NCBI GenBank assembly: GCA_030753015.1
Contig: JASMDC010000020.1
Span: forward strand, 1 to 64,000
Reading direction: 5' to 3'
From: Candidatus Undinarchaeales archaeon
GTDB taxonomy: Archaea > SpSt-1190 > JASMDC01
DNA: 64,000 nucleotides
Shown here: positions 263 to 46,531 of the stretch, piece after piece
Numbering within the stretch: position 1 is the stretch's first letter
How the letters are laid out: each line of letters opens with the position of its first letter
Program-made: the position numbers and the translations under genes
Notes under the pieces: model-generated
The model's input: only the letters and a program-made list of their open reading frames with translations
What the model was told of the DNA's origin: nothing
The model's database searches: none

Positions 263-360
263 CCGTCTTGGTCTTGACCATCATCAGTTAAAAGGATTTT
301 GGGACCGCCGCCAGCCCCACCGCAGAAAAGGATATAAGCGTGGCTCGGGCAACTTTCAGA
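263..360. promoter_or_regulatory. Divergent intergenic promoter region with two TATA-like elements
   Basis: A TTAAAAGG element at 287-294 lies about 28 nt from the minus-strand ATG at 262. A second element, GGATATAAGC at 330-339, lies about 26 nt before an in-frame GTG at 361 on the plus strand. Each therefore fits a leaderless start for one of the two divergent genes. No factor-binding palindrome was seen. Confidence 0.45.
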
Positions 361-1635
361 GTGACGGTGCGGTCCCGCGGCAACCTGAACCTCGAATTCG
401 TGGTCAGCCTCCTTCTCTTCGCCATGATATTCAGCATCACCATCATGCAGTACACTCAATCGGTGAACCGCTTTCTGGCCTTCTCCTACGAGGAGAGTCT
501 TCGGGTCGCTGCACAGCAGCTTATATGGCAGCTCACGAACGATGCCGGCTGCGACGAGGCTTGCGACTGTATCGCCGATAAGAACTGCGATCACTGGGGG
601 AAGAATAATTACCTCCGCATCGGATTCGCCGACGCCGATGAACCGGTCCTGAGCGTACAGAAGTTGCACGAGTTCTCCGGCCTGTACGACGAGGCCATCA
701 AGTCGGTACGCAACTACACAAAGATGGTCCGCGCCATGAACATGCCTAACAAGACCTTCCACATGCGCATAGAGCGCGTACCCACCCTATCGATCAATGC
801 CATCGCAGGCTCTCCCCAGGACGGTTACCTCCATTGCTACTCCTACATGCCCATTTGCGCGAACATCAACAAGACGCGGTCCAACATAACTGCCATCTTC
901 TACGTCAACCGGAGCGATGTCGATCTCAACTGTATACCCTTCGTTCTAAAGGAAGGTCGATCCGTGGTCCAGCTGGAGCCGAAGCGAGAAACCCGCAGGC
1001 TCTGCGAGGTGGAGTACACCTTTGAGGATTACGATGCACCGGGGACCTACACTGTTCTAGCGTTGCTTAACTCGACCGAGTCCATGGGCTATCGGGCTAT
1101 CGACGTGAACGTCATCGGGGATGAGCCTGCCCGCACGTCCGCGCTGTACCCGCCTCTCGTCAACTGCTCGATCTATCCCATACGAGGGAACACTTGCAGC
1201 ATCAATCTCGAGCTCACCGCTCCCTCTGATTTACGGGGCATCCGCATCAAGCCCCGGGTGCACACGGTCACGCGACCGGAGGGGGATCCAGAGACGAGTG
1301 CGGTCAACAGGTACCAGGCTGACATCGAGCTCACTCCCGACCACTTCGCCTACCTCCGCAAGGGGGATATGGCCGTCTTTTCGACCACCTTCTTCATGAA
1401 CGAACCGGGTATCTACCAAGGCAACTTCACGATCATCGCTCGGGACGAGGAGGGTAACCAGATCACACCGTACGTGGCACCGTTCCAGGTGAGCGTAGAG
1501 GGGTCGTTCCTCATCATCGAACGCGGCGTCCCGCCACCCAGGCGAACGGCGTCGGCCAGTGTCGAACGCTACATCACGATTAAATATCCATCCGGGGAGA
1601 AGGCTATTGCGCGAATGACACTGGTCGTTTGGTGA
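361..1635 (+). CDS. Pilin-like secreted protein with class III signal peptide
   Basis: The N-terminus, MTVRSRG then NLNLEFVVSLLLFAMIF, is a textbook type IV prepilin: a short basic leader, Gly at -1, Glu at mature position +5 and a hydrophobic stretch of about 18 residues. I chose GTG 361 because a TATA element sits 26 nt upstream and it gives the ideal short leader; GTG 340 would add seven residues. The remaining 400 or so residues look extracellular: many N-x-S/T sequons, scattered cysteines and beta-rich Ig-like stretches. Prepilins of this kind are processed by a PibD/FlaK-type peptidase and anchored or assembled at the surface. The length (424 aa) is far beyond a major pilin, so a minor-pilin or surface-anchor role is more likely. 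It heads the cluster that also encodes a signal peptidase and two giant pilin-like proteins. Confidence 0.7.
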   Translation: MTVRSRGNLNLEFVVSLLLFAMIFSITIMQYTQSVNRFLAFSYEESLRVAAQQLIWQLTNDAGCDEACDCIADKNCDHWGKNNYLRIGFADADEPVLSVQKLHEFSGLYDEAIKSVRNYTKMVRAMNMPNKTFHMRIERVPTLSINAIAGSPQDGYLHCYSYMPICANINKTRSNITAIFYVNRSDVDLNCIPFVLKEGRSVVQLEPKRETRRLCEVEYTFEDYDAPGTYTVLALLNSTESMGYRAIDVNVIGDEPARTSALYPPLVNCSIYPIRGNTCSINLELTAPSDLRGIRIKPRVHTVTRPEGDPETSAVNRYQADIELTPDHFAYLRKGDMAVFSTTFFMNEPGIYQGNFTIIARDEEGNQITPYVAPFQVSVEGSFLIIERGVPPPRRTASASVERYITIKYPSGEKAIARMTLVVW

Positions 1636-1668
1636 GATTGTCATGATAACTACGAGGGACAACGTCTG

Positions 1669-2670
1669 ATGGCATCGAAGCGTGCCGGCTCGAAAAGAAC
1701 GAAGCGCAAGGACCGCTCCTCATCGGTTCTGAAGAAGAAGAAGACGTCAAAGGTACCTGAAAGCTCACCAGAAAAAGAAACGGATCGGTCCACCGTCGAC
1801 ACAGGGCTCGTTCCAGCGGACCGGCGGGACGCAGTCGAGCTCTTGCTCGTCCTCCTTCTCCTCGTCTACGTCTTCACGCAGATGGCGACCTCGTTCATCG
1901 CTCCAAGCCCACCTATGCTGCAGGTGCTGGCGGTCTCGGTCGTGCTCGGTGCCGGTGTGTGCATCGTCATCCGCAAGGAAGATGTCGTCGGCCACTACCT
2001 GCTCACATTCATCCTCCTCTTCTTCATCTTCACTGAGATCCCTGGACTCAACTCCCTGTTCGCAACGGGTTTTGTGACCCTCTTGGTGTTCGTCTGGACG
2101 GAGTTCATCGATCCAGAGGAGCACATCAGCGAAACTAGCATGTGCCTTGTGTATGCCATCGTGCTCGCCAAGGCCATCCTTTTCGTGCTCCACGCCACGC
2201 TCGCCACGAGCACACCTATCGTGGCAGTCGTATCGAACAGCATGAAGCATGATAATACCAACGAGGAGTATGCCGCATGGGTGAAGGAGAACGGTTTCCC
2301 CATCTCCAACGGATTCACGGGTGGTGATGTGCTCCTCGTCGTGGGTACCAAAGCAGAGGGCATCCGCGTGGGGGACGTCATCGTGTACTATCACAGCCGC
2401 GTCCCGATGCCCATCGTGCACCGGGCCGTGGGCGTCGCCTGCACCAACAAGGACGAGAGCCCCTGCACGAAGGTGCGGGCCCTCGCCACTCGCGGGGACC
2501 ATAATGCGGGACCTGACCGGTGGGCGGTGACCCCCGACATGCTTGAGGGGAGAGCTGTGTTACGCATCCCCAAGCTCGGGCTTATAAAAGCAGCACCAGT
2601 ATGCCTGCTCAAGTCCAGTTGCAGTGTCATTGCCTGCATAATGGAGGGCGAGTGTAAAGGAAGGTTGTGA
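1669..2670 (+). CDS. Signal peptidase I (SEC11-like), multi-pass N-terminal extension
   Basis: Archaeal type I signal peptidases release secreted proteins with a Ser/His(/Asp) active site of the SEC11 type. Visible here are a SNSMKH segment (nucleophile Ser, near residue 190), IVHRAV (catalytic His) and TRGDHN (Asp) in the expected order in the C-terminal half. The first 45 residues are Lys/Arg/Ser-rich. Residues 55-178 then form about five hydrophobic helices before the catalytic domain, which is unusual because most family members have one or two. It lies 33 nt after the pilin-like gene and 15 nt before TFS, consistent with one transcript. Its position inside a secreted-protein cluster suggests a role in exporting those products, but class III leaders are normally cut by a different enzyme. 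Confidence 0.8.
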   Translation: MASKRAGSKRTKRKDRSSSVLKKKKTSKVPESSPEKETDRSTVDTGLVPADRRDAVELLLVLLLLVYVFTQMATSFIAPSPPMLQVLAVSVVLGAGVCIVIRKEDVVGHYLLTFILLFFIFTEIPGLNSLFATGFVTLLVFVWTEFIDPEEHISETSMCLVYAIVLAKAILFVLHATLATSTPIVAVVSNSMKHDNTNEEYAAWVKENGFPISNGFTGGDVLLVVGTKAEGIRVGDVIVYYHSRVPMPIVHRAVGVACTNKDESPCTKVRALATRGDHNAGPDRWAVTPDMLEGRAVLRIPKLGLIKAAPVCLLKSSCSVIACIMEGECKGRL

Positions 2671-2685
2671 AAGGAGAGAACGATC

Positions 2686-3033
2686 ATGGATTTCTGTAAG
2701 GACTGTAGCGGCATGATGCTGCCTAAAAGACTGGAGGATGGAACGGTCGTGATGGAGTGTACCAAGTGCGGCGCCACCGTCGCCTCCGACAAGAAGGACT
2801 TCACGATCCAGACGAAGAAGAAGACGAAGAAGAAGGTGTCGAAGAAGGAGACCATCGCGGTCATCGATGAGGAAGAGGCTATGAAGAACATGGCCAGCAT
2901 CGAGGCCGAATGCCCGAAATGCGATAACAAACGCGCGCTCTGGTGGCTCGTCCAGACACGCGGTGTGGACGAACCTTCGACGCGGTTCTTCCGCTGTACC
3001 AAGTGCCGGCATACTTGGCGCGAGTACGCATAA
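2686..3033 (+). CDS. Transcription factor S (TFS, TFIIS-like)
   Basis: TFS rescues arrested archaeal RNA polymerase by stimulating transcript cleavage. This 115-residue protein has the full layout: an N-terminal zinc ribbon (CKDC near residue 4 and CTKC near 25), a Lys-rich linker and a C-terminal zinc ribbon (CPKC ... CTKC). The acidic DE pair inserted into the polymerase active site is in QTRGVDEP; most relatives read QTRSADEP, so the SA to GV change is minor. A clear Shine-Dalgarno-like GGAGAG precedes the ATG, unlike the leaderless genes, as expected for an internal operon gene. It sits between a signal peptidase and a small membrane protein. Confidence 0.92.
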   Translation: MDFCKDCSGMMLPKRLEDGTVVMECTKCGATVASDKKDFTIQTKKKTKKKVSKKETIAVIDEEEAMKNMASIEAECPKCDNKRALWWLVQTRGVDEPSTRFFRCTKCRHTWREYA

Positions 3034-3046
3034 ACGGTCGACTACC

Positions 3047-3403
3047 TTGGCGAGCCCCAATCGGGACCACCTCGTGTGGCTCGCGCTGGTGCTCTCCGCC
3101 TACCCGCTCATCTCCCCCCTCCCATCGAACCTCGTGAGGTTCGCTATCGGAACCGCTCTCCTCATCTGGTTGATGCGGGACGCGGCTCGGTTCGTCGGTA
3201 TCGATACTCGCCCGGAGGGGATATCCCCTCTCCACATCCTAGCGCTACTGTGGCTCGCTCTCTACTGGATGGCGTTCTCGGCCCTCAACACCCTCTTCAA
3301 GGGTAGGATGGGCGCGCGCGAATGGAGTGTGCTCCTTCTCCTTCTCGGGATGTTCGTGATGCTTATGCGCGAAGCGGACCGGGTCTATCGGGCCCGGCTC
3401 TAG
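3047..3403 (+). CDS. Small four-helix membrane protein, unknown function
   Basis: I do not recognise this protein. From a TTG at 3047 (13 nt after the TFS stop) it reads about 118 residues with four hydrophobic helices and short polar loops, ending in a basic tail (MREADRVYRARL). The open frame extends upstream inside TFS, but that part is a shadow with unrelated composition, so the start must be at TTG 3047 or GTG 3074. It stops with TAG. Its position suggests co-transcription with TFS and the signal peptidase. Confidence 0.55.
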   Translation: MASPNRDHLVWLALVLSAYPLISPLPSNLVRFAIGTALLIWLMRDAARFVGIDTRPEGISPLHILALLWLALYWMAFSALNTLFKGRMGAREWSVLLLLLGMFVMLMREADRVYRARL

Positions 3404-3524
3404 CAAACGGGATACCCATATAAATGATAGGAGACTCTCCCTCTATATCGGGAAGAGATACGAAGGTCTCCAGAAAGACCTTAACAAGCTTATCGACGGC
3501 TTAGCGAAGCACGACGACGAGGCG

Positions 3525-4019
3525 ATGCGTGACCTCTCGAGCAAGCTAGTCCGCGAAGCGTCCCGCATCCATGACCAGGACCTGATCAGTCTCACGATCA
3601 TCAGCTACAGCCTCTCAAAGATCCTACAGAAACGGTATTACCGCGAGGGACGGCGTTGGCCGTCATTCCTCGGGCGAGTGATGGACAATCTCGCCCGTGC
3701 GTCCGAGAGACTGCAGAGCGGCGACATCAAGGGTATGCGCGAATCCTTCAGGACCGTGTTCAACGCCATGGTGGAACTGGACGCCGAGGTGGGCCACCAC
3801 GTCAACTGGGTGATCGAGAAGGCCAAGATCAAGAAGGCGAGCACACTCTACGCTATCGGCTTCTCCATCGGTATGAGCGCCACGCTCACCGGCGCGAGCA
3901 TGTGGGAGGTCATGGACTACGCGGGTAAGACCAAAATCGTGGACGAGGAGAAGGTCACCCGTTCCGTATCGTCCAGACTTGAACTGGCCCGAAAGGTGTT
4001 CCGTGTGGAGGAACGATGA
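3525..4019 (+). CDS. Helical conserved-type protein of unknown function, true start probably upstream
   Basis: I do not recognise the family. The protein is largely alpha-helical and charged, and overlaps the following PIN-like gene by 4 nt (ATGA), so the two are translationally coupled. ATG 3525 is the first canonical start in frame. However, the frame stays open with clearly coding composition for at least 26 codons before it (reading IGKRYEGLQKDLNKLIDG from 3447), and a TATA element (CATATAAATG, 3417-3426) is centred about 27 nt before an in-frame ATC at 3447. The natural product may therefore start at a non-canonical ATC codon. Function is unknown; coupling to a PIN domain hints at an RNA-related or toxin-antitoxin-like role, which is only inference. 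Confidence 0.6.
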   Translation: MRDLSSKLVREASRIHDQDLISLTIISYSLSKILQKRYYREGRRWPSFLGRVMDNLARASERLQSGDIKGMRESFRTVFNAMVELDAEVGHHVNWVIEKAKIKKASTLYAIGFSIGMSATLTGASMWEVMDYAGKTKIVDEEKVTRSVSSRLELARKVFRVEER

Positions 4020-4759
4020 CGGACATCGTATGCGACGCTTCGAGCATCATCTCTCTCGCCACAAATTGCTTATTGTGGCTCCTCCCCTCGCTCCGCGAGC
4101 GGATGGGAGGGAACTTCATCATCCCGCCGTCAGTACGCCGTGAGCTCATCGACAAGCCCCTCAAGTCCACGCGATACCGGTTCGAGGCCATCCGCGTGGT
4201 GAGGGCCCTGGAGCAGGGAGACATAGTCATCCCAGAAGATCCCGAGCTGAAGACACGCGTGGCCGTGGACGCCGAGCAGCTGCTCTCCTGGGGAAACTCA
4301 ATCTTCGCAATCGGCAGGCCCCGAAAGGGAAGGAGCGGGCGGTATGCCAAGATCTTCCACCTCGGCGAGGCTGAGGCCGTGGCCATGACACGCCACATGG
4401 ATACCAACGTGCTTCTCATCGACGAGAAGACCACAAGGTTCCTCATCGAGGACCCGCTGGAGCTGGAGCGTATCATCGAACGGCGGACAAAGGCGAAGGT
4501 GTTCGTCAACGAACACTCCCTTCAGCAGTTCTTGGACTTTACCAAGAACGTCCAGATCATCCGGTCGGCCGAGGTGGCACTGGCCGCTTATGAGGCAGGA
4601 CTGTTCCGCGCCTTCCGCTCCGACGGGATCGACCAGGAACGGAATATCGTGTCCGGTGTGCTCCACGCCATCCGCAACTCCGGGTGTGCCATTGGTAGCA
4701 GTGAGATCGACGACTATGTGTCGCTCGAGTTCGGAGAGGTGCGTGCTGATGAGGAGTAG
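4016..4759 (+). CDS. PIN-like (DUF3368-type) nuclease-fold protein
   Basis: PIN domains are Mg2+-dependent ribonucleases with three or four conserved acidic residues. Here the N-terminus reads IVCDASSIISLA (first Asp), followed by IIPPSVRREL, then HLGEAEAVAM (Glu) and VLLIDEKTTRFLIE (Asp), in the order expected for DUF3368/COG2405-type PIN proteins. At 247 residues it is longer than a typical 150-residue PIN. The insert at about residues 45-105 and the C-terminal extension are unassigned. It overlaps both the upstream helical protein (4 nt) and the downstream giant pilin-like gene, so it belongs to the same transcription unit. It could be a degradative RNase or an inactive PIN fold. Confidence 0.65.
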   Translation: MTDIVCDASSIISLATNCLLWLLPSLRERMGGNFIIPPSVRRELIDKPLKSTRYRFEAIRVVRALEQGDIVIPEDPELKTRVAVDAEQLLSWGNSIFAIGRPRKGRSGRYAKIFHLGEAEAVAMTRHMDTNVLLIDEKTTRFLIEDPLELERIIERRTKAKVFVNEHSLQQFLDFTKNVQIIRSAEVALAAYEAGLFRAFRSDGIDQERNIVSGVLHAIRNSGCAIGSSEIDDYVSLEFGEVRADEE

Positions 4760-7700
4760 GTGCTCCCTGATCCACGACGAGCGTGGATTCGTGCACTCAG
4801 TGGAAGCCGTACTGGCAATCATGCTCCTTCTCTTCTATACATCGCGGATGCTGGACACGCCGCTGCGTGTGCAAGAGGATAAGAAGCGGGCGCAGCTCGA
4901 CGAACTGAGGGAACAGATCGTCGGTGTGCTCGCAGGATTGGACAGGCGTGGTCTACTGGGTGATATGGTGTTCAGCGCTGATTATGCAAGCCTTGACACG
5001 ACTCTCCAGGGGATTTTCCCTGAACGTGAGAGCTTCACAGCGTCCGTCACCTACATGGTGCCCATGACCGTCACGGAGACATCAGGCCTGCCACGTCGGC
5101 GTGATCCGGTCGAGGTATCGGTGGACGTCCCGTTGGCCACGGATATCCGATCGTTCGTGCTCAGGGACGAGGCGGGGAAGGTTCTAGCACCTCTCCAGAC
5201 CAGCCGACCCTGGATGCGCATCCCTCTAACCCTCACCTGGCATCATCTCTGGCACCGGGACGTGAGCCTTCCCATCTCCCAGTGCACCGCTGACCAGACC
5301 GACTTCTACGATGACATCGCAAAGGGCCTCAACTGCCGCGATCCCATGGTGGAGCTCCCGCCCGCCGACATCAACGACGACGGGTTCCTGGACTACCCGG
5401 ACCGCAACTCGTTAGCGCTCTATATGGAGGACTGGTTCGATACACGCTGGTCCTTCCGTATCAAGCTCCGCTCCCGTGGGAAGGATGCAAGCAAGGTGAG
5501 CGATAACGCCCGCATCACCATCAAACTCCATGAGCTCATCGACCATGCGGGGATGACCTGCAAGAAGGGCATCGACCTGAACTCGTTCATCGTCACGGAC
5601 CGATTGGGCGATCCCGTGGACCACTCCGTGTCCATATCTGGTGGCTGCACGTGCGACACATGCACGATCATCGTTGACTGGAAACTGGGCACGGCCGTGG
5701 ACCATGAGACCTTACTCACCCACTGGCTCTACTTCAACACGCTCGACGCCGAGTTCCCTGCCGCGGACTGTCCGAGCTTCACAGCGCACTTCCAGAAGGC
5801 CGACTCAGGCTCGGGCAAGTGCATCATTGAGGACTGGACGACCAATCCGCCCAACAACGGGGACGAGGACCTCACGCCACGTAAGAGCGTCGGGGCCATT
5901 ACGGTCAACGGAAAGGTGGAGACCACCCATTCACAGATCCAGTTGCCACGTGACGCCGATTACGTAGAGATACCGTTCACCCTGGCCGCATGGCGTGACG
6001 CCGAGACGTACATGGAGTCGAGGGCACGCACCGGCATCTCGATCATCAGGTTCCAGCCCGTGCGCCTTGAGCGGGCATGGCGGTTCAGGTGGCATATCCG
6101 CGCGGAGCGCGTGAACCGGTCGGTCGAGTTCCGCGGGTTCGTCTCCGGTGCACCAGGCACATGCCGCGGCTACAAGTGCATTACACTGGAGCCCATCGGC
6201 GGTGGTGACCGCCCCGATCAGAGCAAGTTGGACGACACCTACTACTTCAACAAGGACATCTACGAGGTCGCGGAGGGGAGTTTCTACATCTGCACGTCCA
6301 CCATGGTGGGCGATGAGGTCCACGAGATCAATGACATCTACGACCTCTTCGAACTGAACGTGACGATCCGCGACGAGGTCGTCGATTCCGCCGATCGCGT
6401 GTGGCGCAACGCGATGCCCAATGCGTTCATCACAATCTACAAACCCCAGAGCCGGGATGACGAAGGCGGACCGCGGTGCGCTTCGGACAACTCTGCGAGC
6501 TCGACATGGGACAGCCCGCTCTTCAATGATGACGCGTCATCCCTCATCTCATTGGAGTCAGGGCTCACCCTCGACCAGATGACAACCCTGGGCATCGTCC
6601 GGGGGGACTCGTCCTCATCCTCCACCTCGGCCGGTGTCACGACAGAGGCTATCGACTCGGTAAAGACGGGCATTGCTATCGCGCCCTACCCCTCGTCCTA
6701 TGCCAGCATTCTTCCAAAGATACCGTTCATCAGTTCTGCCGGTAACTACCGGCTCCGCCGGAAGTTCTATCTCTACTACGCTATGAACTCGGTGACCTTG
6801 CCCAAGGATGCGGTCGCCACCGGTACTGTGGTGGATCCCTCCTGGTACACTCTTGACACATCCGCGCCGGAGCATGCTCCCCGTGTACAGGTCACCTGGC
6901 GGGACAATTTCCGACCCCGACAGGTCAAGGAGTTCTATCTCTCCTATTCAGTGGGCACCGATGAGTCCGATCAGGGATACGAAACCGACCTTGAGGTCAC
7001 CGTGGACAAGCAGTGCTACGATTGCCTTTCGCTCCGCTGCTTAACCTATGAGGACTGCAAGGACTACACCGACGGGGACGGTGACAACATCATCGACGAG
7101 GACTTCCTCACTACGGTCACCGCTCTGAACAACACCCCTATCGACATCCACCTGGGCCCCTGTAGTACCGAGACACCCTCCGAGGATTGCGATGTCCTAT
7201 GGGTCGCCCACGAGAACATGAACATCACACGTCACGTATTCTCCAACGCCGGGGATCGTACTGCGGTCGTCGATGAGACTGGACCCGTGTTCACATCGGT
7301 GCGCATGACGACGAACAGCTCATCGATGAAATCACGTGACATCATCAGGATCTACCATGACACACCCTATATCCTTTACTCGAAGTACTTCATCCCGCTC
7401 AAGGACGGCGACCTCCCCTCCATCGCTGGCTCCATCGCCATCCCAATCTATAACTTCACTGCCTTGAAGGCGAACGACTCTCCCGTGTTCGACGTGGACG
7501 AAGTGGACTTCTCGACCCATAACAAATGGTTCGCTAACTGGGGTTATCCGTGCGGGAACATCGGGGTATGCACAGTCACCTACGCGATCCTCTCCGAGAA
7601 CGCCAAGAAGGCGACCTTCTCTCAGGACCGCTGGCACGACGAGTTCACGGACACTTCAGGGATTACGATCGCCGCTGCCGGCACTACCAACAATCTTGCC

Positions 7701-8381
7701 GCCACCGACGGCGTCATGGGCCTCACCGCCGATGCCTCGGAGAGCACGGGCGAGGATGTGCTCCTGATGTTCGACCTGTCGCACCAGTTCTCAACCGCAG
7801 GATCGCAGCTCATTATCAGGACCAAGCGTGCCTACACCGCTTACGGTGGCCGCTCGAGTCTCCAGTTGGGGATGCTGCCCGACGGCACCGGCCGATACAC
7901 TGTGGCCCGGTGGGGCGACACCGATATCTCCGAATGGACCACTCTGACCTACGACCTGGAAGAATTGTGGGGAGAGAAGCCGTTCAAGCACGTGTTCCTC
8001 ACCATCGAGGACCAGGACACCGTGTCGACGGGTACTCGCTCGCTGTACGTCGACTCCATCCGTGTGGAGGGTAGCGGTGGCACGAACATCACGATCGTAC
8101 CTACCTCCGATTCTCCCAAGGCGTTCGAGGCGTACCCGTTCCTCGGTAGCGTTCGGGTGTTCAAGGAGGATTTCAGGGAGAGTGATGACTTCTTCCGCCG
8201 ACGTGCTGCACCGTTCATCGTGGAGATGGAGCGACCGGTGACAATGGACGGTGGGACACCCTTCCCGTCCCGCGACAACAATCCATCCACAACGACAGCA
8301 ACTGCCACCTATGCAGTGACCTCCAACAACCGCAGGATCGGATTCGCCTGGGTCAAGCTGGCGGTATGGTCGTACATGTGA
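4749..8381 (+). CDS. Giant pilin-like secreted protein A (about 1,210 aa)
   Basis: The N-terminus, MRSRCSLIHDERG then FVHSVEAVLAIMLLLFY, has a basic leader, a Gly cleavage position, a Glu at +6 and a hydrophobic helix: a class III (pilin-type) signal. The remaining 1,180 or so residues are soluble and beta-rich with paired cysteines. A calcium-loop-like segment, DINDDGFLD, lies at nt 5367-5393 and a second acidic one, DGDGDNIIDED, near 7070-7100. It is a paralog of the next gene: shared blocks include the N-terminal helix, LDYPD followed by an aromatic DW segment, APYPSSYA and a C-terminal VTSNNRRIGFAW. ATG 4749 overlaps the PIN gene by 11 nt; GTG 4743 is also possible. It probably forms an envelope-anchored surface structure. 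I do not recognise a named family. Confidence 0.75.
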   Translation: MRSRCSLIHDERGFVHSVEAVLAIMLLLFYTSRMLDTPLRVQEDKKRAQLDELREQIVGVLAGLDRRGLLGDMVFSADYASLDTTLQGIFPERESFTASVTYMVPMTVTETSGLPRRRDPVEVSVDVPLATDIRSFVLRDEAGKVLAPLQTSRPWMRIPLTLTWHHLWHRDVSLPISQCTADQTDFYDDIAKGLNCRDPMVELPPADINDDGFLDYPDRNSLALYMEDWFDTRWSFRIKLRSRGKDASKVSDNARITIKLHELIDHAGMTCKKGIDLNSFIVTDRLGDPVDHSVSISGGCTCDTCTIIVDWKLGTAVDHETLLTHWLYFNTLDAEFPAADCPSFTAHFQKADSGSGKCIIEDWTTNPPNNGDEDLTPRKSVGAITVNGKVETTHSQIQLPRDADYVEIPFTLAAWRDAETYMESRARTGISIIRFQPVRLERAWRFRWHIRAERVNRSVEFRGFVSGAPGTCRGYKCITLEPIGGGDRPDQSKLDDTYYFNKDIYEVAEGSFYICTSTMVGDEVHEINDIYDLFELNVTIRDEVVDSADRVWRNAMPNAFITIYKPQSRDDEGGPRCASDNSASSTWDSPLFNDDASSLISLESGLTLDQMTTLGIVRGDSSSSSTSAGVTTEAIDSVKTGIAIAPYPSSYASILPKIPFISSAGNYRLRRKFYLYYAMNSVTLPKDAVATGTVVDPSWYTLDTSAPEHAPRVQVTWRDNFRPRQVKEFYLSYSVGTDESDQGYETDLEVTVDKQCYDCLSLRCLTYEDCKDYTDGDGDNIIDEDFLTTVTALNNTPIDIHLGPCSTETPSEDCDVLWVAHENMNITRHVFSNAGDRTAVVDETGPVFTSVRMTTNSSSMKSRDIIRIYHDTPYILYSKYFIPLKDGDLPSIAGSIAIPIYNFTALKANDSPVFDVDEVDFSTHNKWFANWGYPCGNIGVCTVTYAILSENAKKATFSQDRWHDEFTDTSGITIAAAGTTNNLAATDGVMGLTADASESTGEDVLLMFDLSHQFSTAGSQLIIRTKRAYTAYGGRSSLQLGMLPDGTGRYTVARWGDTDISEWTTLTYDLEELWGEKPFKHVFLTIEDQDTVSTGTRSLYVDSIRVEGSGGTNITIVPTSDSPKAFEAYPFLGSVRVFKEDFRESDDFFRRRAAPFIVEMERPVTMDGGTPFPSRDNNPSTTTATATYAVTSNNRRIGFAWVKLAVWSYM
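5367..5393 (+). other. EF-hand/dockerin-like calcium loop in giant A
   Basis: The segment encodes DINDDGFLD, matching the DxNxDGxxD calcium-binding loop pattern. The equivalent place in giant B encodes DVNGDNLLD (near 9080-9106), so the loop position is conserved between paralogs. Metal binding is inferred from the motif only. Confidence 0.45.
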
Positions 8382-11300
8382 CGGTGAAACACGTGGGAAG
8401 GACGTTGACCAGGCAGGGGCGCGGACGACTTGGACGTGGACTGGTCGAGGACGAGAGCGGGTTCATACACGCTGTCGAGGCGGTCCTGTCCATCTTCCTG
8501 CTGATGTTCTACTCCCAGTCGATCCTCCGCACCCCGGTGTTCATCCGAGTCATCCAGGAGGAGGAGGCGACACGTGAGCTGTCCGACCAGATCATGGGCA
8601 TCCTCTCGAGCCTCGACTCGAAGAACTTCCTCGGAGAGGCGGTGTTCGCAGCGGACTTCAACCTCCTGGACAAGACCCTTGAGAACATCCTGCCGGAGCA
8701 TGCTGGATTCTCCTACTCGATCAGCTATATGCAGCCATTCACGTTGGTGGAGCCGACCGAACGGTATGCCTGGACGAACTGGCCCGTCACGGTGTCCCTG
8801 GACCTCCCCAAGGCCACGGACACTGGCTCGATCAACCTGAGGAGCGGGAACGGCGACATAATCCTCCCCCTACAGGTGTCTTGGCCATGGTTCCGGTACC
8901 GCATCGACTTCGGACACAAGCTGACCTCGGCATGGCCCAACTTCACCCTACCCTTGCGGATGTGCGACCTGTACCACGATCCGCGCGATCTCTACAACAT
9001 CACGGAGGAGGACCGGGAGTACATAGTCAACTGCCTACCCGTGTCCGGTCCCGCCGACCTAGTCGAGCTGGAGCCTGCCGACGTCAATGGCGACAACCTC
9101 CTTGACTATCCCGATCCCGGTTCAGTACATCTCTACATGGACGACTGGTACGACGACAGGTGGGATTATCGTCTCCGCGTCTCTACCAAGGCCATCGGCC
9201 CGGCCAACGAGGCCAATGCGTCCATAGCCGTGGGGCTCGCTGACCTCATGGATGCCCAGGGCATTCCCTGTCGCCACGGCCTGGACATGAACAGCACACT
9301 CATCGCCGATCCCTATGGGACGCCCATGAACTACACAGCCGAGTCGCACTGCTGCGGCGACGGTGTATGCAGCTCAACGGAGAACTCGATATCCTGCCAT
9401 CTCGACTGCCCGGGGACGTGCGGTGACGGGCTGTGCGGTGTGGGGGAGAGCAACGCCAACTGCGATCAGGACTGCCTCGATACCTGCGGTAACAACGATT
9501 GTGAGGATGGAGAGGACTCACTCTCCTGTCCCTTCGACTGCCCTCGTCTCTACAAGTCATCATGCGATTGCACAATGTTCCTGAACTGGACCTTCCCGGG
9601 CCCGGTCTCTTACGGCGATAAGCGCACCTTCTTCCTGTACTTCAACACCTTCGATGTCGAGGAACCCGTGAACCGGTGCCGCCCCGACATGAATCCCGTA
9701 AAGGTAGTCTACCGCAACTGCAAGGCGGGCTACACCGATGTCCAAGGCGACTTCGTGTGCACAAACGGCCGCTGTTCCATCAGCGACTGCAGGGTGTACC
9801 CCCGGCTCAAGTGGTCCTACCCCGAGTTCGGTCCGCTTGAAGAAGGGCACTCCTGCCCCCGAAAGGACCTCATCCCCAGCGATCCCAACCTCGTGAGCAC
9901 CTACGGGCCAGTGGAGGTCATCAGCGACCGGGACTATGTGGAGATGCCCATGGAGGTGGTCGACTGGCGTGATGGTCGTGTGTACGAGGACGATGTCGTC
10001 TACTACGGTCTTACCCTCCAACGGCGCCGTGTGCGGGAGGTCAACCACTCAGGCATCCCCTCGTGGAACATGCAGGTTCGCGTGGTAGCGTACAAGGCCA
10101 ACCACACAGTGGAACTGGCCGGTGATGTGACCGGCATCGCCCCCGGGAGCTGCGTGGCCGAAGCAGGTGGCATCAACGATTGCGTCACGGTGGTCCGCGA
10201 GGTCGATGAAGAGGAACAGCTCGGGATGAACACCGAGTCAGTGGAACCCGATTACACCGACCTCCCCTCGCTCACCGAGCCCGTGAAGGCGGAATCCGGC
10301 TCCAAGCACTTCTACGTCTGCACGACGACCGTTGACCTCAACTTCCCCCGCATCTATCCTTCCACCAGGGATGATATGGACATATTCACCATCAACATCA
10401 CCGTCCCCAAGAAGGTGTTCGATGAGCGGACAGGGGTCATCAGGCGTAACTTCCCCAAGAACATCCGGTTACAGTTCTCCATCATGGAGACCCACGACAC
10501 TTCAGCGGTGTTCCCCCGTTGCATGACCAAGTACGAGGACAAGACAGACCTCGAGCTCGCTGCCGACCGCATGGTCGTGCTCCCGACGGGCGAGTCGCTG
10601 GAACTGGCACGCAGCTGGTCCCCCATGAGCAGGCCCTTCATCGCGCCCTATCCCTCGTCCTACGCACGTATCAACTTCCATCTCCCGTTCATCGAGGCAC
10701 CGGGCCCCGCGAACCAGTACCCTGGTGAGGTCCACCGCGATCTTTTCCTGTACTATTCCATGGGGACCGACAAGGACCCACCCGAACCCCCGTCAGCGCC
10801 CACATGCCTTGAGGAAAAGCTCTATTGTGTACGCGGGGACGTGTTCTTCGTCCGGGAGGCTGTGAACAAAGCGCCACGGGCCGACATCTCCTGGATGGAG
10901 AGCTTCCAACCCGCGGAGCACAAACGATTCTATGCCTTCTATCGCGTGGGTACAAACGAGGCACCGGTCACCGGCGAATCCGACCTTGCGCTGGGCAAGA
11001 AGCAAGTGTGCACGGACTGCTTCGCCGATACATGCCCCGATCGCACGTGCACCAACCGTCGCGACGACAACAACAACGGTATCCTCGACGAGACCGAGGT
11101 GCGCTCGGTGTCCAACGTCTCGAGCGATGCCGGATTCTGGTCCTTCACCTACAGCCCGGGCGTGAGCTGCGGAGTCCAGGCCTCCACGGGGCTCGGTGCA
11201 GTGTGCATGCTCAACTCATTCATCTCGAAACGTGCGCTAACGGGGACGGACCTGATGGAAGGGGGTCGGCCGTCTTTCACGATGGAGGTCCCCGGACTTG

Positions 11301-12043
11301 TGGAGGCGGCCATCCCTGCCACCCATAAATCGGCCACTGTCATGGTCGAGGGTCCCGTCCGGAACGTCGTACAGACGATCGCACAGCACGAACTGGGGAC
11401 TGTCATTAACCTATACACGTTCTATCCCTCCTCGACCCTATGGCGGATGAGCAAGACCATCATACCTTCCAATCTCATCAAGGCACCTACGGGAAAAAAC
11501 GTGGGGAACATCACCTTTGCATTCACCGGGGACTGGACCAACGTCACTTACTTCCCGGACAGCATGGACAAGGTCTTCGAGCGGAGGATCGAAGGGGGCC
11601 AGATCGTCGAGTTCGATGTCAGCGAGGACTGGATCACATATTGGAACGCGACCTGCGGGAAGTGGGGCTCCTGCGGGTTCACCGTGGCGCTTTCGGACAA
11701 GGACATGGTCTCTCGGGCCTCAGTGATGCCGGACGCATCGCTCAAACCCAGCATCACCCTTGACATAAAGCGTGAACAGCTCACCCCCTTCAACGCTACG
11801 ACCATCCGCACACTCATGGACTTCAGGGTCGATCCTGCTGAGACGGGCTCCCGGCTCGCTTCCCTCCAGAACAATCCCTTCCGGGTAGAATACGATCGAT
11901 TGATACCGCTCCATGGGGGCGAGGCGGTCCCAGAGAAGACCGTTCCTCCCCACATCTCAACGGGGACAGCAGCCTACGTGGTCACGACCAACGGCCGTAA
12001 AGTCGGGTACTCTTGGCTGCGGTTCCATCTCTGGTATGCCTGA
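8366..12043 (+). CDS. Giant pilin-like secreted protein B (about 1,225 aa), paralog of A
   Basis: After a 27-residue basic leader comes VEDESG then FIHAVEAVLSIFLLMFY, a class III signal like that of giant A. The ectodomain repeats the paralog's architecture (LDYPD near residue 245, APYPSSYA near 770, terminal VTTNGRKVGYSW). It adds a cysteine-rich insert at nt 9350-9543 with three tandem CGDGxC...DC-type repeats of about 22 residues, and an acidic DDNNNGILDETE loop near 11068-11100. The start overlaps the end of A by 16 nt, so the two are expressed together. Many N-x-S/T sequons suggest glycosylation. Even cysteine-pair spacing suggests extensive disulfides outside the cell. Role unknown; envelope filament, S-layer component or adhesin are all possible. 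Confidence 0.75.
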   Translation: MVVHVTVKHVGRTLTRQGRGRLGRGLVEDESGFIHAVEAVLSIFLLMFYSQSILRTPVFIRVIQEEEATRELSDQIMGILSSLDSKNFLGEAVFAADFNLLDKTLENILPEHAGFSYSISYMQPFTLVEPTERYAWTNWPVTVSLDLPKATDTGSINLRSGNGDIILPLQVSWPWFRYRIDFGHKLTSAWPNFTLPLRMCDLYHDPRDLYNITEEDREYIVNCLPVSGPADLVELEPADVNGDNLLDYPDPGSVHLYMDDWYDDRWDYRLRVSTKAIGPANEANASIAVGLADLMDAQGIPCRHGLDMNSTLIADPYGTPMNYTAESHCCGDGVCSSTENSISCHLDCPGTCGDGLCGVGESNANCDQDCLDTCGNNDCEDGEDSLSCPFDCPRLYKSSCDCTMFLNWTFPGPVSYGDKRTFFLYFNTFDVEEPVNRCRPDMNPVKVVYRNCKAGYTDVQGDFVCTNGRCSISDCRVYPRLKWSYPEFGPLEEGHSCPRKDLIPSDPNLVSTYGPVEVISDRDYVEMPMEVVDWRDGRVYEDDVVYYGLTLQRRRVREVNHSGIPSWNMQVRVVAYKANHTVELAGDVTGIAPGSCVAEAGGINDCVTVVREVDEEEQLGMNTESVEPDYTDLPSLTEPVKAESGSKHFYVCTTTVDLNFPRIYPSTRDDMDIFTINITVPKKVFDERTGVIRRNFPKNIRLQFSIMETHDTSAVFPRCMTKYEDKTDLELAADRMVVLPTGESLELARSWSPMSRPFIAPYPSSYARINFHLPFIEAPGPANQYPGEVHRDLFLYYSMGTDKDPPEPPSAPTCLEEKLYCVRGDVFFVREAVNKAPRADISWMESFQPAEHKRFYAFYRVGTNEAPVTGESDLALGKKQVCTDCFADTCPDRTCTNRRDDNNNGILDETEVRSVSNVSSDAGFWSFTYSPGVSCGVQASTGLGAVCMLNSFISKRALTGTDLMEGGRPSFTMEVPGLVEAAIPATHKSATVMVEGPVRNVVQTIAQHELGTVINLYTFYPSSTLWRMSKTIIPSNLIKAPTGKNVGNITFAFTGDWTNVTYFPDSMDKVFERRIEGGQIVEFDVSEDWITYWNATCGKWGSCGFTVALSDKDMVSRASVMPDASLKPSITLDIKREQLTPFNATTIRTLMDFRVDPAETGSRLASLQNNPFRVEYDRLIPLHGGEAVPEKTVPPHISTGTAAYVVTTNGRKVGYSWLRFHLWYA
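9350..9543 (+). repeat. Three tandem CGDGxC...CxxDC cysteine repeats within giant B
   Basis: Three consecutive units of about 22 residues each carry the pattern C-G-(D/N)-x-x-C ... E/D ... C-x-x-D-C. Giant A lacks this insert, so it was gained or lost after the duplication. Similar CGDGxC..GE..xxC..DC repeats are known from bacterial and archaeal secreted proteins and probably form small disulfide and calcium-stabilised modules. Confidence 0.6.
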
Positions 12044-36695: not shown

Positions 36696-37202
36696 CTACT
36701 CCGCGACGTACCGCACGTGGCGGACGTCGTCTGCGACCTCGGCCTCTTCCTTGACACAGTCCTCTATGATCTTGTGCGCTTGCAGAGCGGTCCAGAAGCC
36801 TTTCACGCTCTGGATGGGGTGGCGCCAGTCGGCCAGGACGCTCCTGTACTGGGATAGACCATAGCCCTCTGCGGCCACACTGATCATCATGTCCTCTATG
36901 GCCTCAGCGCTGCCAGTGATGGTCACGCGCATGCCCTCAGTGTTTATCTCCTGTGCCAGGAACCGGCCATAGTGGGTCGTGCGCTCCTCGTAGGGTGCGA
37001 CCTCGATGGTGGCTCCGTACGATTCGGCCACTTCCTGGCCGATCTCGGCAATGGACTCTGCGAAGCCCTCCTGTCGGTCGTCGTAGACCGTGGTCAGCTC
37101 GTTTGAGTTGCGGAACGGCCGCGTAGACATCCATTCATGCTCCTTCGTCACGTAGTCGATCTCGACGCGCTCGATAGGAGTGTCGGTTTCAATCTCGTAC
37201 AT
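36696..37202 (-). CDS. Unrecognised tandem-paralog family, copy 3
   Basis: This 168-residue protein belongs to a family of three adjacent paralogs. Shared features are an N-terminal ERVEIDYVTKE, VYDDRQEGFAESI, an acidic central region, EGYGLSQ, and the most conserved block ADWRHPIQSVKGF. The pattern of alternating strands and helices with no TM or cysteines suggests a small soluble alpha/beta protein, perhaps ligand-binding. It is last in the row, 2 nt after copy 2, with a TAG stop. Nothing I know matches the DWxHPxQSVKG motif. Confidence 0.75.
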   Translation of the reverse strand: MYEIETDTPIERVEIDYVTKEHEWMSTRPFRNSNELTTVYDDRQEGFAESIAEIGQEVAESYGATIEVAPYEERTTHYGRFLAQEINTEGMRVTITGSAEAIEDMMISVAAEGYGLSQYRSVLADWRHPIQSVKGFWTALQAHKIIEDCVKEEAEVADDVRHVRYVAE

Positions 37203-37204
37203 GT

Positions 37205-37720
37205 CTATTCCTCCCGTTCCACGTAGGTGACGGTGCGCTCGGCGTCACCGGTCTCCTGCAGGACGAACCGCTCGGCGAGCTCATCCTTGGTGTCCCGGGC
37301 CGTGCAGTAGCCTTTCACGCTCTGGATGGGGTGGTGCCAGTCTGCCATGAACCACTCCTCCTGTGGCAGGCCGTACCCACGCTCTGCGACCATGGTTACA
37401 AAGCCCTTTACGGCCTCCTTGGTGCCAGTTAGGGTGACCTTGATGCCATCGGTCTCACGGTACGCATTGGCGAGCGACCTGTTGGCACTGAGCACGTTGC
37501 CCTCGTATGAGCTGATATCCACGGACGCGCCGAACATGTCGTTCATCTCGGTGGCCATACCGTCCATGAAGTTGGTGAAGCCATCCTGACGCTGTTCGTA
37601 TACCGAATGCGTCCTAAATCCGCCCAGAAGGCTGCTGTTGAAGCAATCGGTCTGCTCGGTCACATAATTGAGCTCGACCCGCTCAAGGGGGCCGTCGGTT
37701 TCGCAGTACATGATGATCAC
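37205..37720 (-). CDS. Unrecognised tandem-paralog family, copy 2
   Basis: The 171-residue protein shares with its neighbours LERVELNYVTE, VYEQRQDGFTNFM, ERGYGLPQ and MADWHHPIQSVKGY. Compared with copies 1 and 3 it has His in place of Arg in the DWRHP block. Start may be ATG 37720 or ATG 37711. It follows copy 1 by 15 nt and precedes copy 3 by 2 nt, so the row is one operon. It ends with TAG. No homologous motif is known to me. Confidence 0.75.
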   Translation of the reverse strand: MIIMYCETDGPLERVELNYVTEQTDCFNSSLLGGFRTHSVYEQRQDGFTNFMDGMATEMNDMFGASVDISSYEGNVLSANRSLANAYRETDGIKVTLTGTKEAVKGFVTMVAERGYGLPQEEWFMADWHHPIQSVKGYCTARDTKDELAERFVLQETGDAERTVTYVEREE

Positions 37721-37735
37721 CCTGCTATTGCTTGT

Positions 37736-38260
37736 CTAGACATCATCTCGCTGGATCTCGTAGGTGATGTGGCGCACGCCGCTCTCGAGGTGCTCTTTCT
37801 CGACAACATCCCTTTCCAGGGCCTCGATACATCCCCGGGCGGAGAGGTAACCCTTGACGCTCTGGACGGGGTGGCGCCAGTCGGCCATGAATGACTTGTC
37901 CTGAGGGATGCCGTAGCCGGCCTTGGCGATGCCTCCCGTGAGCTCCTCGATGGCAAGGTCCGGACCGATGATGGAGACGCGGACGCCGTCGGTCTCGGTA
38001 AAGACCGCAGAGGACCTGCCGATGATGGGGTGCTTCTCCCCCTGGTAGGGTGTCACCTCGATGGCTAGGGAGCCGTCGTACCGGGACTCCAGCTCGGCGC
38101 CCAGGTCCGTCATGAAGTCGCTGAAGCCCTCCTGTCGGTCGTCGTACACGGTCTGCTCCGTTCGGGGGCTGAAGTACGCCGAGTGGAAGCTATCGGTCCG
38201 CTCGGACACGTAGTTGAGCTCGACACGCTCCAAGAAGCCTGTATCTAGTTCGCTGATCAT
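37736..38260 (-). CDS. Unrecognised tandem-paralog family, copy 1 (promoter-proximal)
   Basis: First gene of the row, 174 residues, with LERVELNYVSERTDSF, VYDDRQEGFSDFM, KAGYGIPQ and MADWRHPVQSVKGY. An AT-rich TATA-like TAATTAAAAA (minus strand, near 38303-38314) precedes it by about 45-50 nt, giving a short leader, unlike the leaderless genes around. The family has no cysteine, TM or recognised catalytic motif. Three diverged copies kept together suggest subunits of one heteromeric assembly or paralogs with different ligands, but this is inference. Confidence 0.75.
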   Translation of the reverse strand: MISELDTGFLERVELNYVSERTDSFHSAYFSPRTEQTVYDDRQEGFSDFMTDLGAELESRYDGSLAIEVTPYQGEKHPIIGRSSAVFTETDGVRVSIIGPDLAIEELTGGIAKAGYGIPQDKSFMADWRHPVQSVKGYLSARGCIEALERDVVEKEHLESGVRHITYEIQRDDV

Positions 38261-41073: not shown

Positions 41074-41949
41074 ATGCCCGAGATAGAGGTGGCTCCAGTG
41101 ACCTATTCCGAGGTTATGGACCGGCTCGAAGAGCTCGGTGGTCAGTACAGTGATGTGCTCACGGTCGATCCCGCCGGCACCTCCCCCAAGGGATACGACA
41201 TCCCCGGAGTCGTGGTCAGGCCCACGGGCGAGGTCCGTGGGACCATGATGGTCGTTGCCGGCCAGCACTTCAGCGAGGCCGCAGGCCCACCCGCCGCACT
41301 GGATTTCCTAGAGGGCTACCTTTCCTCGGAGGATCCGGTGTACCAGGAGGCACGGGAGCATATCGCCCTGGCGGTGGTCCCCTGCGTGAACGTGGACCGC
41401 TACCAGAAGAGGCCCCCCTGTTCCGACTGGATGGCCGACCAGTCGAACGCCCTCGACCAGTACCTCAACGACGGGTACGGCGAGGCTGGCTGGGCCACCC
41501 TCGAGGAACGGGCCGTGATGTCGTTCACCGATCACGTGGAGAGCGAGTACGGCACCATCGACGTAGCGATGGACCTGCACGAGACCTCGGCCAACCGCGG
41601 ACCCTTCAAGGCTCTCGGCTACCTCTCCAAGCGATGGCCTGTGCTCCACCGCATCTTCGGGTGGTCCCCCAACTTCCACGGATTCCTCCTCAACCACGAG
41701 GCACCGCCCAAGGAGGAGGACCGCGGCTACATCGAGGCCGTGCTGGATGCTGCTGACGGCCACATGGATCCGATAAGGGAGAACGAGTGCTCACTTTCCC
41801 ACACATACCAGGGCTATGCTGCTAGCAAAGGTGCCATGGCCATGACCACCGAGACCAACGAGTACGATCCCTTCGAACTGCGGGTGGAGGTCCAGGAGAG
41901 CTCCCTGGATGCGGTGCTACGCGAGCTCGTCGAGCGAACCCGGGAGTGA
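41074..41949 (+). CDS. M14-like zinc carboxypeptidase / AstE-type hydrolase
   Basis: The zinc-binding HxxE pattern is seen in VAGQHFSEAAGP, the distal His in AMDLHETSANRG, and the catalytic-type Glu in TTETNEYD near the C-terminus. The arrangement matches M14 carboxypeptidases and the succinylglutamate desuccinylase/aspartoacylase branch. No signal peptide is visible, so it is probably cytosolic. About 291 residues from ATG 41074. It lies 57 nt before the secreted-giant operon but has its own shared promoter with SfsA, so it need not belong to that system. Confidence 0.72.
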   Translation: MPEIEVAPVTYSEVMDRLEELGGQYSDVLTVDPAGTSPKGYDIPGVVVRPTGEVRGTMMVVAGQHFSEAAGPPAALDFLEGYLSSEDPVYQEAREHIALAVVPCVNVDRYQKRPPCSDWMADQSNALDQYLNDGYGEAGWATLEERAVMSFTDHVESEYGTIDVAMDLHETSANRGPFKALGYLSKRWPVLHRIFGWSPNFHGFLLNHEAPPKEEDRGYIEAVLDAADGHMDPIRENECSLSHTYQGYAASKGAMAMTTETNEYDPFELRVEVQESSLDAVLRELVERTRE

Positions 41950-42005
41950 ACCGGGGTCTGCTCGCGGGATATCCATTTTTATCATTCACATCTTTTGTGG
42001 TCCTT

Positions 42006-44723: not shown

Positions 44724-46531
44724 TGGGACGGAGGATCGCACGCCAACGGGGCCAGATGACCCTACTGGGCCTGATCGCCATAGCCCTCGTGGTCCTGCTG
44801 ATAGTGGGTGTCTTCCTGTATCGCGGTCGGACGGAACGTGAGGTCAGGGTCGGACGAATCTCATCGGAGTCAACTCGGGAGATGCTCATCAAGCTCGAGC
44901 GACAGGTGGACACACTTCTCGCCACTTCCATGTACGAGGCGGCCTTCGAGATGGGAGCGCATGGCGGGTACATCGCTGAGAGCGTGCCCCGCCTGAACCA
45001 CTATGGGGTACCGTACCTGTTCTATCGGGGCAAGGTCGTGAACCTTCCCTCGGTAAAGGCCATGCAGGAGATGTACGCCGACGAGGTGAAGCGCAGGCTT
45101 GAGACGAAGCTGGCCGTGCTCCGGCGTGAACTCGAGGGGAAGGTAGTGCTGGCGGTCCCAGAGGTGCGCATCACGCTCGTGGACGACAACGTCCTCGCCA
45201 AGATGGAGCTTCCCGTCGAGGTGCAAGGGGAGACGCGGGCCCGGTCCCGCATCCCCATCTCCATGAACCTTCCCGTCCGGCTCAAGCGATTGCGCGACCT
45301 TGCCGAGCGCTATGTGCGTGACTACACGAGGGAGCGCCGGATGGAGAAGAACTTCCTCTACGGTATGACGAACGATCCCAGGATAGCCACTCCTGGTAGC
45401 GACTTGCGCACAATCCCGTGTGAAGGTAAGACCGTACTGAGCACCTATAACCAGCTGGTGACGCCCTTCCGCGAGACCGCACAGCTCGCAGTGTCGCTGG
45501 AGCTCAAGCGCGTGCTCGAGTCGCCCATATACTCCTCCGAGCACATCCAGTGGGACGTGGACCTCAATCCACGAGAGGTCGAGTTCTCCTTCGTGGCCAA
45601 TCAGGGTGAGGGGACGTACGAGAGCACCGACACGATCCGCCTCATCCCGGTCCCGTTCCCGGCTGTGGCCCAGAGCGATGGGCTGTGCCTATCCCGGTTC
45701 TTCGTCCAGTACGATATCAACTTCCCCATGCGCTACACGATACGTGACGTCCAACCGACCTCGATGACCATCGGGGCCACCGAGAACCTCGCGGTCCGCC
45801 CGCTGGACTTCAGGTTCTACATGATGCCCCTTCTCCTCGGCGAGGACGTCAATGCCGTAGATGTCGAGGTGACAGCACCTGAGACTGTGGACGACCTGTG
45901 CCATGGGTCGTGCTCGGTCGACCTCACCATCACCAACTCGGACGCAGGTACCGTATGGCTCGACTCGTGCAAGTACCGCTATAGCGGTGGACGTCTCCAG
46001 GAGACGGGGACGGTATGCGGACGTCTCACCCTCATCGTCGAGCCTGACGCCCAGTTCAGCCTGGCCAAGTACGTGGAGCAGGTGACGATCATCGACAACA
46101 TCCGCTCCCTCATCACACTCAAGCCCTTCAGCACGGTCACGGGTTCGATGATGGAGAAACGTCGTGTGTACTGCTCGACATTGATGACCGTGCGTGAGGA
46201 CCCGTCGGTACCCCTGGGAGCTCAGGAGGGGACGACCCCCGGCACTGTGGAGGTCATCCTTCAACCCCTCTCGTCCCGGCTCGACCGACGTCGCGTGTCA
46301 GTGGACGAATCCGGCGCATTTGAGATCCCATTCGTGGTCCCTGGGCGCTATCTGGTCATGGCGGTCCCGTCTCGGAACGAAGCGGGAGTGCCCTACCAGG
46401 AGGTCGAGTCCGCGGGATTCATCCACGAGGTCACGGAGGGCCGGAACGAGCTGACCATCGAGCTCGAGCCCCTTGGCCTGATGAAAGTGGGCGACAAGTA
46501 CATCGGTATCACGTCTACGGAGGTATGCTAG
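44723..46531 (+). CDS. Pilin-like membrane-anchored protein (about 602 aa)
   Basis: The N-terminus MGRRIARQRG then QMTLLGLIAIALVVLLIVGVF has a basic leader, Gly at the cleavage site and a pilin-like hydrophobic helix. The start overlaps the previous stop (ATGA-type; GTG 44717 is also possible). The ectodomain has an early helical region (MQEMYADEVKRRLETKLAVLRREL) resembling the coiled coil seen next to pilin helices, then beta-rich parts with a C-x-x-x-C pair (CHGSCSVDL) and single cysteines, including one as the last residue. It lies between two signal-peptide-bearing giants and probably anchors or organises them. TAG stop. Confidence 0.7.
   Translation: MGRRIARQRGQMTLLGLIAIALVVLLIVGVFLYRGRTEREVRVGRISSESTREMLIKLERQVDTLLATSMYEAAFEMGAHGGYIAESVPRLNHYGVPYLFYRGKVVNLPSVKAMQEMYADEVKRRLETKLAVLRRELEGKVVLAVPEVRITLVDDNVLAKMELPVEVQGETRARSRIPISMNLPVRLKRLRDLAERYVRDYTRERRMEKNFLYGMTNDPRIATPGSDLRTIPCEGKTVLSTYNQLVTPFRETAQLAVSLELKRVLESPIYSSEHIQWDVDLNPREVEFSFVANQGEGTYESTDTIRLIPVPFPAVAQSDGLCLSRFFVQYDINFPMRYTIRDVQPTSMTIGATENLAVRPLDFRFYMMPLLLGEDVNAVDVEVTAPETVDDLCHGSCSVDLTITNSDAGTVWLDSCKYRYSGGRLQETGTVCGRLTLIVEPDAQFSLAKYVEQVTIIDNIRSLITLKPFSTVTGSMMEKRRVYCSTLMTVREDPSVPLGAQEGTTPGTVEVILQPLSSRLDRRRVSVDESGAFEIPFVVPGRYLVMAVPSRNEAGVPYQEVESAGFIHEVTEGRNELTIELEPLGLMKVGDKYIGITSTEVC

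Follow-up and report, generated by a model that had tools for sequence, protein, structure and literature searches.

Introduction

The type IV pilus loci of archaea were surveyed by Makarova, Koonin and Albers in 2016, and large DUF2341 proteins were proposed as tip adhesins (PMC4858521). Conserved type IV pilus loci have also been described in cluster-2 DPANN and Undinarchaeota (Hamm 2024, PMC11291902). In the epd pilus locus of Methanococcus maripaludis, a DUF2341 gene was found in a transposon screen to be needed for transformation (PMC10133366). Outside this group, S. sanguinis PilB is a modular pilin in which a bulky module is grafted on the pilin helix (PMC8179133), while TadE/F/G and Myxococcus KilLMN are minor pilins, one of them large, whose genes accompany those of the Tad machinery and which prime the filament and come to lie at its tip (PMC12075869). 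A different kind of large, beta-rich surface protein is the altiarchaeal hamus protein, which carries a Sec signal peptide and S-layer-like parts (PMC4460559). Here we describe a gene cluster that ends in two giant proteins. The reading that we favor, and regard as probable, is that its first gene product, P0001, and the two giants are minor pilins of an archaeal type IV (Tad-like) pilus, with a doubled and enlarged large pilin, and that they would prime the filament and occupy its tip.

Content of the gene cluster

The window, that is, the whole stretch of 64,000 bases that was analysed, corresponds to bases 1-64000 of contig C30 (64,320 bases); the contig begins at window base 1, so that the upstream DNA lies beyond view. 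Positions 340-12043 of the + strand hold eight closely packed genes, and the full gene set named in the original prediction is present there on a single strand. The cluster opens with P0001 (340-1635, 431 aa), a class III protein whose N-terminus reads G|NLNLE with Glu at +5. The prepilin that had been proposed is thereby recovered, with its start moved from 361 to 340. It is followed by a Sec-type archaeal signal peptidase I with extra N-terminal helices (1669-2670, 333 aa; TIGR02228) and by transcription factor S (2686-3033, 115 aa), whose earlier identification agrees with a PF01096 match at 2.4e-17. This factor is probably an unrelated passenger, and it is absent from the pilus operons of relatives that were examined. 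A small membrane protein comes next (about 3047-3403; the likely start, TTG at 3047, was picked from its position), without a family match in Pfam, NCBIfam or PHROGs. The four 3'-most genes overlap end to start and encode a 164-aa protein (3525-4019), a 247-aa PIN-like protein (4016-4759), giant 1 (4749-8381, 1210 aa) and giant 2 (8366-12043, 1225 aa). At the contig end, divergent from P0001, an open reading frame on the - strand (2-262) shows QYGQ/YGAYGQQ repeats, a Gly-rich stretch and a hydrophobic C-terminal segment.

The 164-aa and PIN-like genes form a pair that is adjacent in 67 of 80 DPANN loci (L045-L124). The PIN-like protein has 129 GTDB matches, nearly all in DPANN, and its gene occurs as a single copy in 17 of 61 genomes, including 9 of the 10 of the class. 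Neither member of the pair matches a Pfam family, so that the label "PIN-like" finds no Pfam counterpart.

P0001 and the giants as minor pilins

A profile of the P1 pilin, built from 14 proteins of other genomes, was searched against 560 open reading frames of the window and matched P0001 only (1.7e-12, the next at 3.5). The alignment spans the N-terminal domain of P0001 and, weakly, a C-terminal strand ending in W. Members of the P1 family match DUF7287 weakly, and most of them are shorter than P0001. By these matches P0001 is assigned to the pilin that follows TadC2 in archaeal type IV pilus operons. It lies 3.1 kb upstream of the giants on the same strand, with five genes between them; in relatives the P1 pilin and the large pilin are usually adjacent.

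The two giants are paralogous over most of their length, as their shared internal blocks had led the original prediction to propose: one block, residues 8-293 of giant 1, shows 38% identity and the other blocks 24% and 38%, and a second comparison of the blocks gave 42, 31 and 35%. A large-pilin profile was made from 15 N-termini with this genome excluded and searched against the same 560 stop-to-stop frames of the window, among which it matched the giants only (1.2e-11 for giant 1 and 1e-8 for giant 2, the next at 1.8). In the reverse search with the N-termini of the giants, five proteins of this slot ranked at the top among 2,008 open reading frames (best 1.8e-5). When these N-termini were shuffled in blocks, so that leader, helix and the stretch after it each retained their composition, scores did not exceed 7.1 bits, against 42.2 and 35.7 for the real ones. 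In a whole-genome search with a family profile trained with the giants, the two giants emerged and nothing else above noise. Both carry the conserved N-terminal domain of the family (K/R-G-F/Y-x-H-x-x-E-x-V-I/L-A and about 90 further residues), and the strong profile signal is confined to their first ~100 residues. The class III N-termini ascribed to the giants are of pilin type, except that Glu falls at +6 and not at +5 if cleavage follows Gly, which is the pattern of their whole large-pilin family. Judged from sequence, then, the giants are the large pilin that follows the P1 pilin in archaeal type IV pilus operons. The expectation that they go with pilus machinery is borne out by their pilin-type N-termini and by the set that they form with P0001 in the P1 and large-pilin profile searches.

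The giants were originally thought to build a large envelope structure. A lattice of the S-layer or hamus kind, stabilised by disulfides and calcium, would be in keeping with their 21 (giant 1) and 38 (giant 2) cysteines, with two D-x-D/N-x-D type motifs in each and with 8 and 14 sequons, and Altiarchaeota are known for hami (PMC4460559). The disulfides of that proposal derive from the cysteine counts alone, and the calcium only from the motifs. Moreover, both the N-terminus and the family of the giants are of pilin type, neither giant matches an S-layer family in Pfam or NCBIfam, the genome has two copies only, at one locus, and published descriptions of the hamus protein give it a Sec signal peptide and DUF1608-like parts instead of a class III pilin helix. 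Such an envelope structure is unsupported and we consider a lattice highly improbable. The giants do match a family with conserved neighbors, but it is one of large minor pilins, not of S-layer proteins.

Bodies of the giants and the DUF2341-like stretch

Giant 1 is laid out as a pilin helix (residues ~13-36), a pilin-like part to about residue 230, a diverged DUF2341-like stretch (229-335) and a beta-rich remainder. In giant 2, a Cys-rich insert of CGDGxC repeats (residues ~328-395, with CGDG at 330 and 352) lies inside the DUF2341-like stretch. No match above cut-off was obtained for either giant in Pfam, NCBIfam or PHROGs, PF10102 (DUF2341) included. A DUF2341-like profile of our own ranks giant 1 first and giant 2 second, at weak E-values of 0.013 and 0.31, which suggests that they hold at most a diverged DUF2341 domain. 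An AlphaFold model of residues 225-344 of giant 1, made with five sequences, is a beta-sandwich with a pLDDT of 61. Its structural matches (Foldseek E 0.16 at best, VIA Z at most 6.1) lie within the range of unrelated models; they are mostly Ig-like domains of Gram-positive pilins and adhesins, with no DUF2341 structure among the matches listed. For residues 1-800 of the same protein, modelled with two sequences, the mean pLDDT was 33 and no usable fold resulted.

For the bodies, of 900-1,000 residues, no homologue was demonstrated. BLAST with giant 1 in 60 other genomes and a pattern search of GTDB contigs returned no relatives, and a two-sequence profile of the whole giants gave, across the phylum, short weak matches only, over the Cys-rich part. 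On inspection the C-terminal strands of the giants look like those of secreted proteins of relatives, but the likeness proved not significant when tested.

Operon order, fusion and fission in relatives

With a TadC1 profile, 297 archaeal genomes were searched and the DNA around the matches was examined. The order that recurs is ATPase, TadC1, TadC2, P1 pilin and large pilin, usually followed by a KGQFF protein. The P1 pilins of these operons (KGQ..EF) have 140-600 aa and the large pilins, with an N-terminus like KGF.HA.EGVIA, 156-826 aa; the longest of the other open frames listed at or below E 1e-10 has 1,067 residues. Both genes were looked for in 35 other genomes with a confident large pilin (E 1e-10 or better); the large pilin lies within ~5 kb of TadC1 in 30 of them and is unlinked in 5. 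At E 0.001 the slot profile matches 128 of 394 genomes, a count whose weak end may include other pilins. The pilins upstream in relatives match DUF7289 (1.2e-6, above cut-off) and DUF7266 (1.9e-5), and one large pilin matches DUF7288 very weakly (0.065).

The large pilin has undergone fusion or fission among relatives. One genome (G002) encodes a fused form of 826 aa; in another (G004) a 228-aa pilin and a following 594-aa secreted protein correspond to the two parts of that fusion (2.7e-29 and 1.1e-14). The same 228-aa pilin finds residues 12-264 of giant 1 by BLASTP at 2.5e-6, and giant 2 at 2.5e-4. In family f2, as in G004, the body is a separate secreted protein; it has a DUF2341-type domain, and its profile falls on that part of a C45 protein in the present genome where PF10102 matches. 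The f2 profiles alone did not match the giants (hhalign P-values of 0.01-0.1 at best), and the connection between the two needed intermediates from family f3 and beyond.

In four genomes of the same class (G003, G005, G006, G007) the 164-aa/PIN-like pair stands directly beside a type IV pilus operon. Besides an ATPase (PF00437, 1.9e-29) and two TadC proteins (PF00482, 4.6e-18 and 1.4e-17), this operon encodes a Cys-containing secreted protein, a class III pilin, a pilin-like protein of 213-216 aa, a secreted protein of ~740 aa and another class III protein. The cluster of the window therefore sits where relatives keep their pilus operon.

Motor, peptidases and other pilus-type systems

In the present genome the operon is split. 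The minor pilins lie on C30, which starts just upstream of P0001, and the candidate motor and platform genes on C63, so that the giants are not linked to an ATPase or TadC gene. The C63 orthologues match strongly (ATPase 3.1e-196, TadC1 1.9e-82, TadC2 1.7e-91) and are accompanied by a coiled-coil protein and two class III pilins upstream of the ATPase and by other genes after TadC2. A second ATPase, on C55, matches the operon ATPase profile even better (2.7e-214); given this score, and since the minor pilins are unlinked to C63, either motor may serve the giants. No KGQFF third minor pilin turned up next to P0001 and the giants.

This separation bears on the idea that the giants, although derived from pilins, are lone adhesins that never enter a filament and use the N-terminal helix as a membrane anchor only. 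Their distance from the motor would suit such a role, bodies within proteins of 1,200 residues are big for a filament subunit, and f2 and G004 encode the body as a secreted protein of its own. However, homologues of the giants lie near ATPase and TadC genes in 30 of the 35 genomes and are always paired with a P1 pilin, and the pilin-like part is conserved past the helix. We hold lone anchored adhesins to be unlikely and favor minor pilins of a filament.

The signal peptidase of the cluster had been linked with the giants. The enzyme is indeed there (TIGR02228 at 8.2e-16, 58.3 bits against a cut-off of 51.85), but it is a Sec-type signal peptidase I and not a class III (prepilin) peptidase of the aspartic family A24; being of Sec type, it was rejected as the prepilin processor. 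It was not seen in the pilus operons of relatives that were examined, and a role in the pilus is doubtful. A protein on C117 that matches Peptidase_A24 (PF01478, 31 bits against a cut-off of 26.5) is a candidate prepilin peptidase; Arc_PepC_II was found in this genome below cut-off only.

The genome (G000) has 3.85 Mb in 117 contigs, with 98.9% completeness and 5.0% contamination; it greatly exceeds the nine further members of its class that were compared, which measure 0.6-1.1 Mb. It encodes five T2SSE-family ATPases above cut-off and seven T2SSF matches, and several distinct pilus-type systems are found on C63, C75, C55, C40, C26 and C117. The presence of several different ATPase/TadC sets, together with a major pilin of the system that was not identified here, could indicate that the giants serve a short pseudopilus or a secretion-type machine instead of a long pilus. 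C63, however, has its class III pilin genes upstream of the ATPase, and the corresponding genes of other archaea match DUF7289 (above cut-off) and DUF7266, which leaves the short machine improbable and a true pilus as the preferred reading.

Elsewhere in the window, on the + strand, 41946-44723 and 44717-46531 encode a 925-aa protein and a 604-aa class III protein (RGQMTLLGLIAIALVV), with paralogs on C26 (1.7e-128 and 2.1e-92) and on C117; on C26 the pair comes immediately after a T2SSE-family ATPase and a 726-aa polytopic protein. The 925-aa/604-aa pair is probably part of another, distinct pilus or secretion system. After it, also on the + strand (46533-51134), comes a 1,533-aa Cys-rich secreted protein, with no NCBIfam match and no paralog among the loci examined. 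On the - strand, three tandem proteins of ~170 aa (36696-38260) resemble one another on inspection and probably arose by a recent triplication.

A proposed model for assembly and a probable tip function

By analogy with bacterial systems, and with the large DUF2341 proteins of archaeal pili for which a tip role was put forward (PMC4858521), a likely sequence of steps can be proposed. P0001 and both giants would be inserted by Sec through the N-terminal helix, and a prepilin peptidase, for which the C117 protein is the candidate, would remove the short leader. An ATPase and two TadC platform proteins, possibly those on C63, would then assemble the three proteins. Through their helices the P1 pilin and the giants would form a complex that starts the filament and consequently ends up at its tip, as bacterial TadE/F/G or KilLMN do, leaving the beta-rich, Cys-rich bodies of ~1,000 residues to face outside as grafted adhesion modules.

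A more specific and tentative version, doubtful at present but worth stating, is that P0001 and the giants are the archaeal counterpart of the TadE/F/G (KilLMN) tip complex, the single large pilin having become two different adhesive heads by duplication, and that the relatives with split genes rebuild the same tip non-covalently. If this were true, the large-pilin slot would be a fast-evolving, exchangeable recognition head of DPANN pili. On the broader reading, two giants without recognizable domains, a prepilin and their counterparts in many archaea are assigned to a single slot of the pilus operon, likely that of a tip adhesin, and the question of how DPANN recognize and hold their partners gains specific candidates, namely the split, fused and duplicated versions of these genes.

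Comparison with known systems

The original prediction knew of no named system with this gene set, but the set belongs to a described type of archaeal type IV pilus operon (PMC4858521; for DPANN, PMC11291902). Like the double-TadC loci of the 2016 survey (PMC4858521), the operons of relatives bring together an ATPase, two TadC proteins, several minor pilins and large surface proteins. The likeness extends to families, with P1 resembling DUF7287, the upstream pilins DUF7289 and DUF7266 and, very weakly, one large pilin DUF7288. Unlike in those loci, the minor pilins and the motor lie here on different contigs, the large pilin is doubled and reaches ~1,200 aa, and any DUF2341 domain in it is highly diverged. 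Locus 1 of Hamm 2024 (CpaF, TadC, FlaF, PilA, GroEL, NTP hydrolase) resembles the operons of relatives, for example L191, in which a thermosome gene comes first. In the part of that study drawn on here (PMC11291902), coiled-coil proteins are stressed, a large-pilin slot is not described and Altiarchaeota are not on the list.

The epd locus (PMC10133366) is alike by description, not by sequence, in having a large DUF2341 protein among minor pilin genes. With PilB, TadE/F/G and KilLMN the giants share an analogy of architecture and gene position only, and no sequence relation is claimed. The hamus protein (PMC4460559) is likewise large and beta-rich, but it is set apart, by description, in lacking a pilin helix. 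Archaeal and DPANN pilus loci of this kind were therefore known already (PMC4858521; PMC11291902), and what the present locus adds to them is the membership of these particular proteins, the giant size and tandem duplication of the large pilin, its separation from the motor and the series of fusions and fissions.
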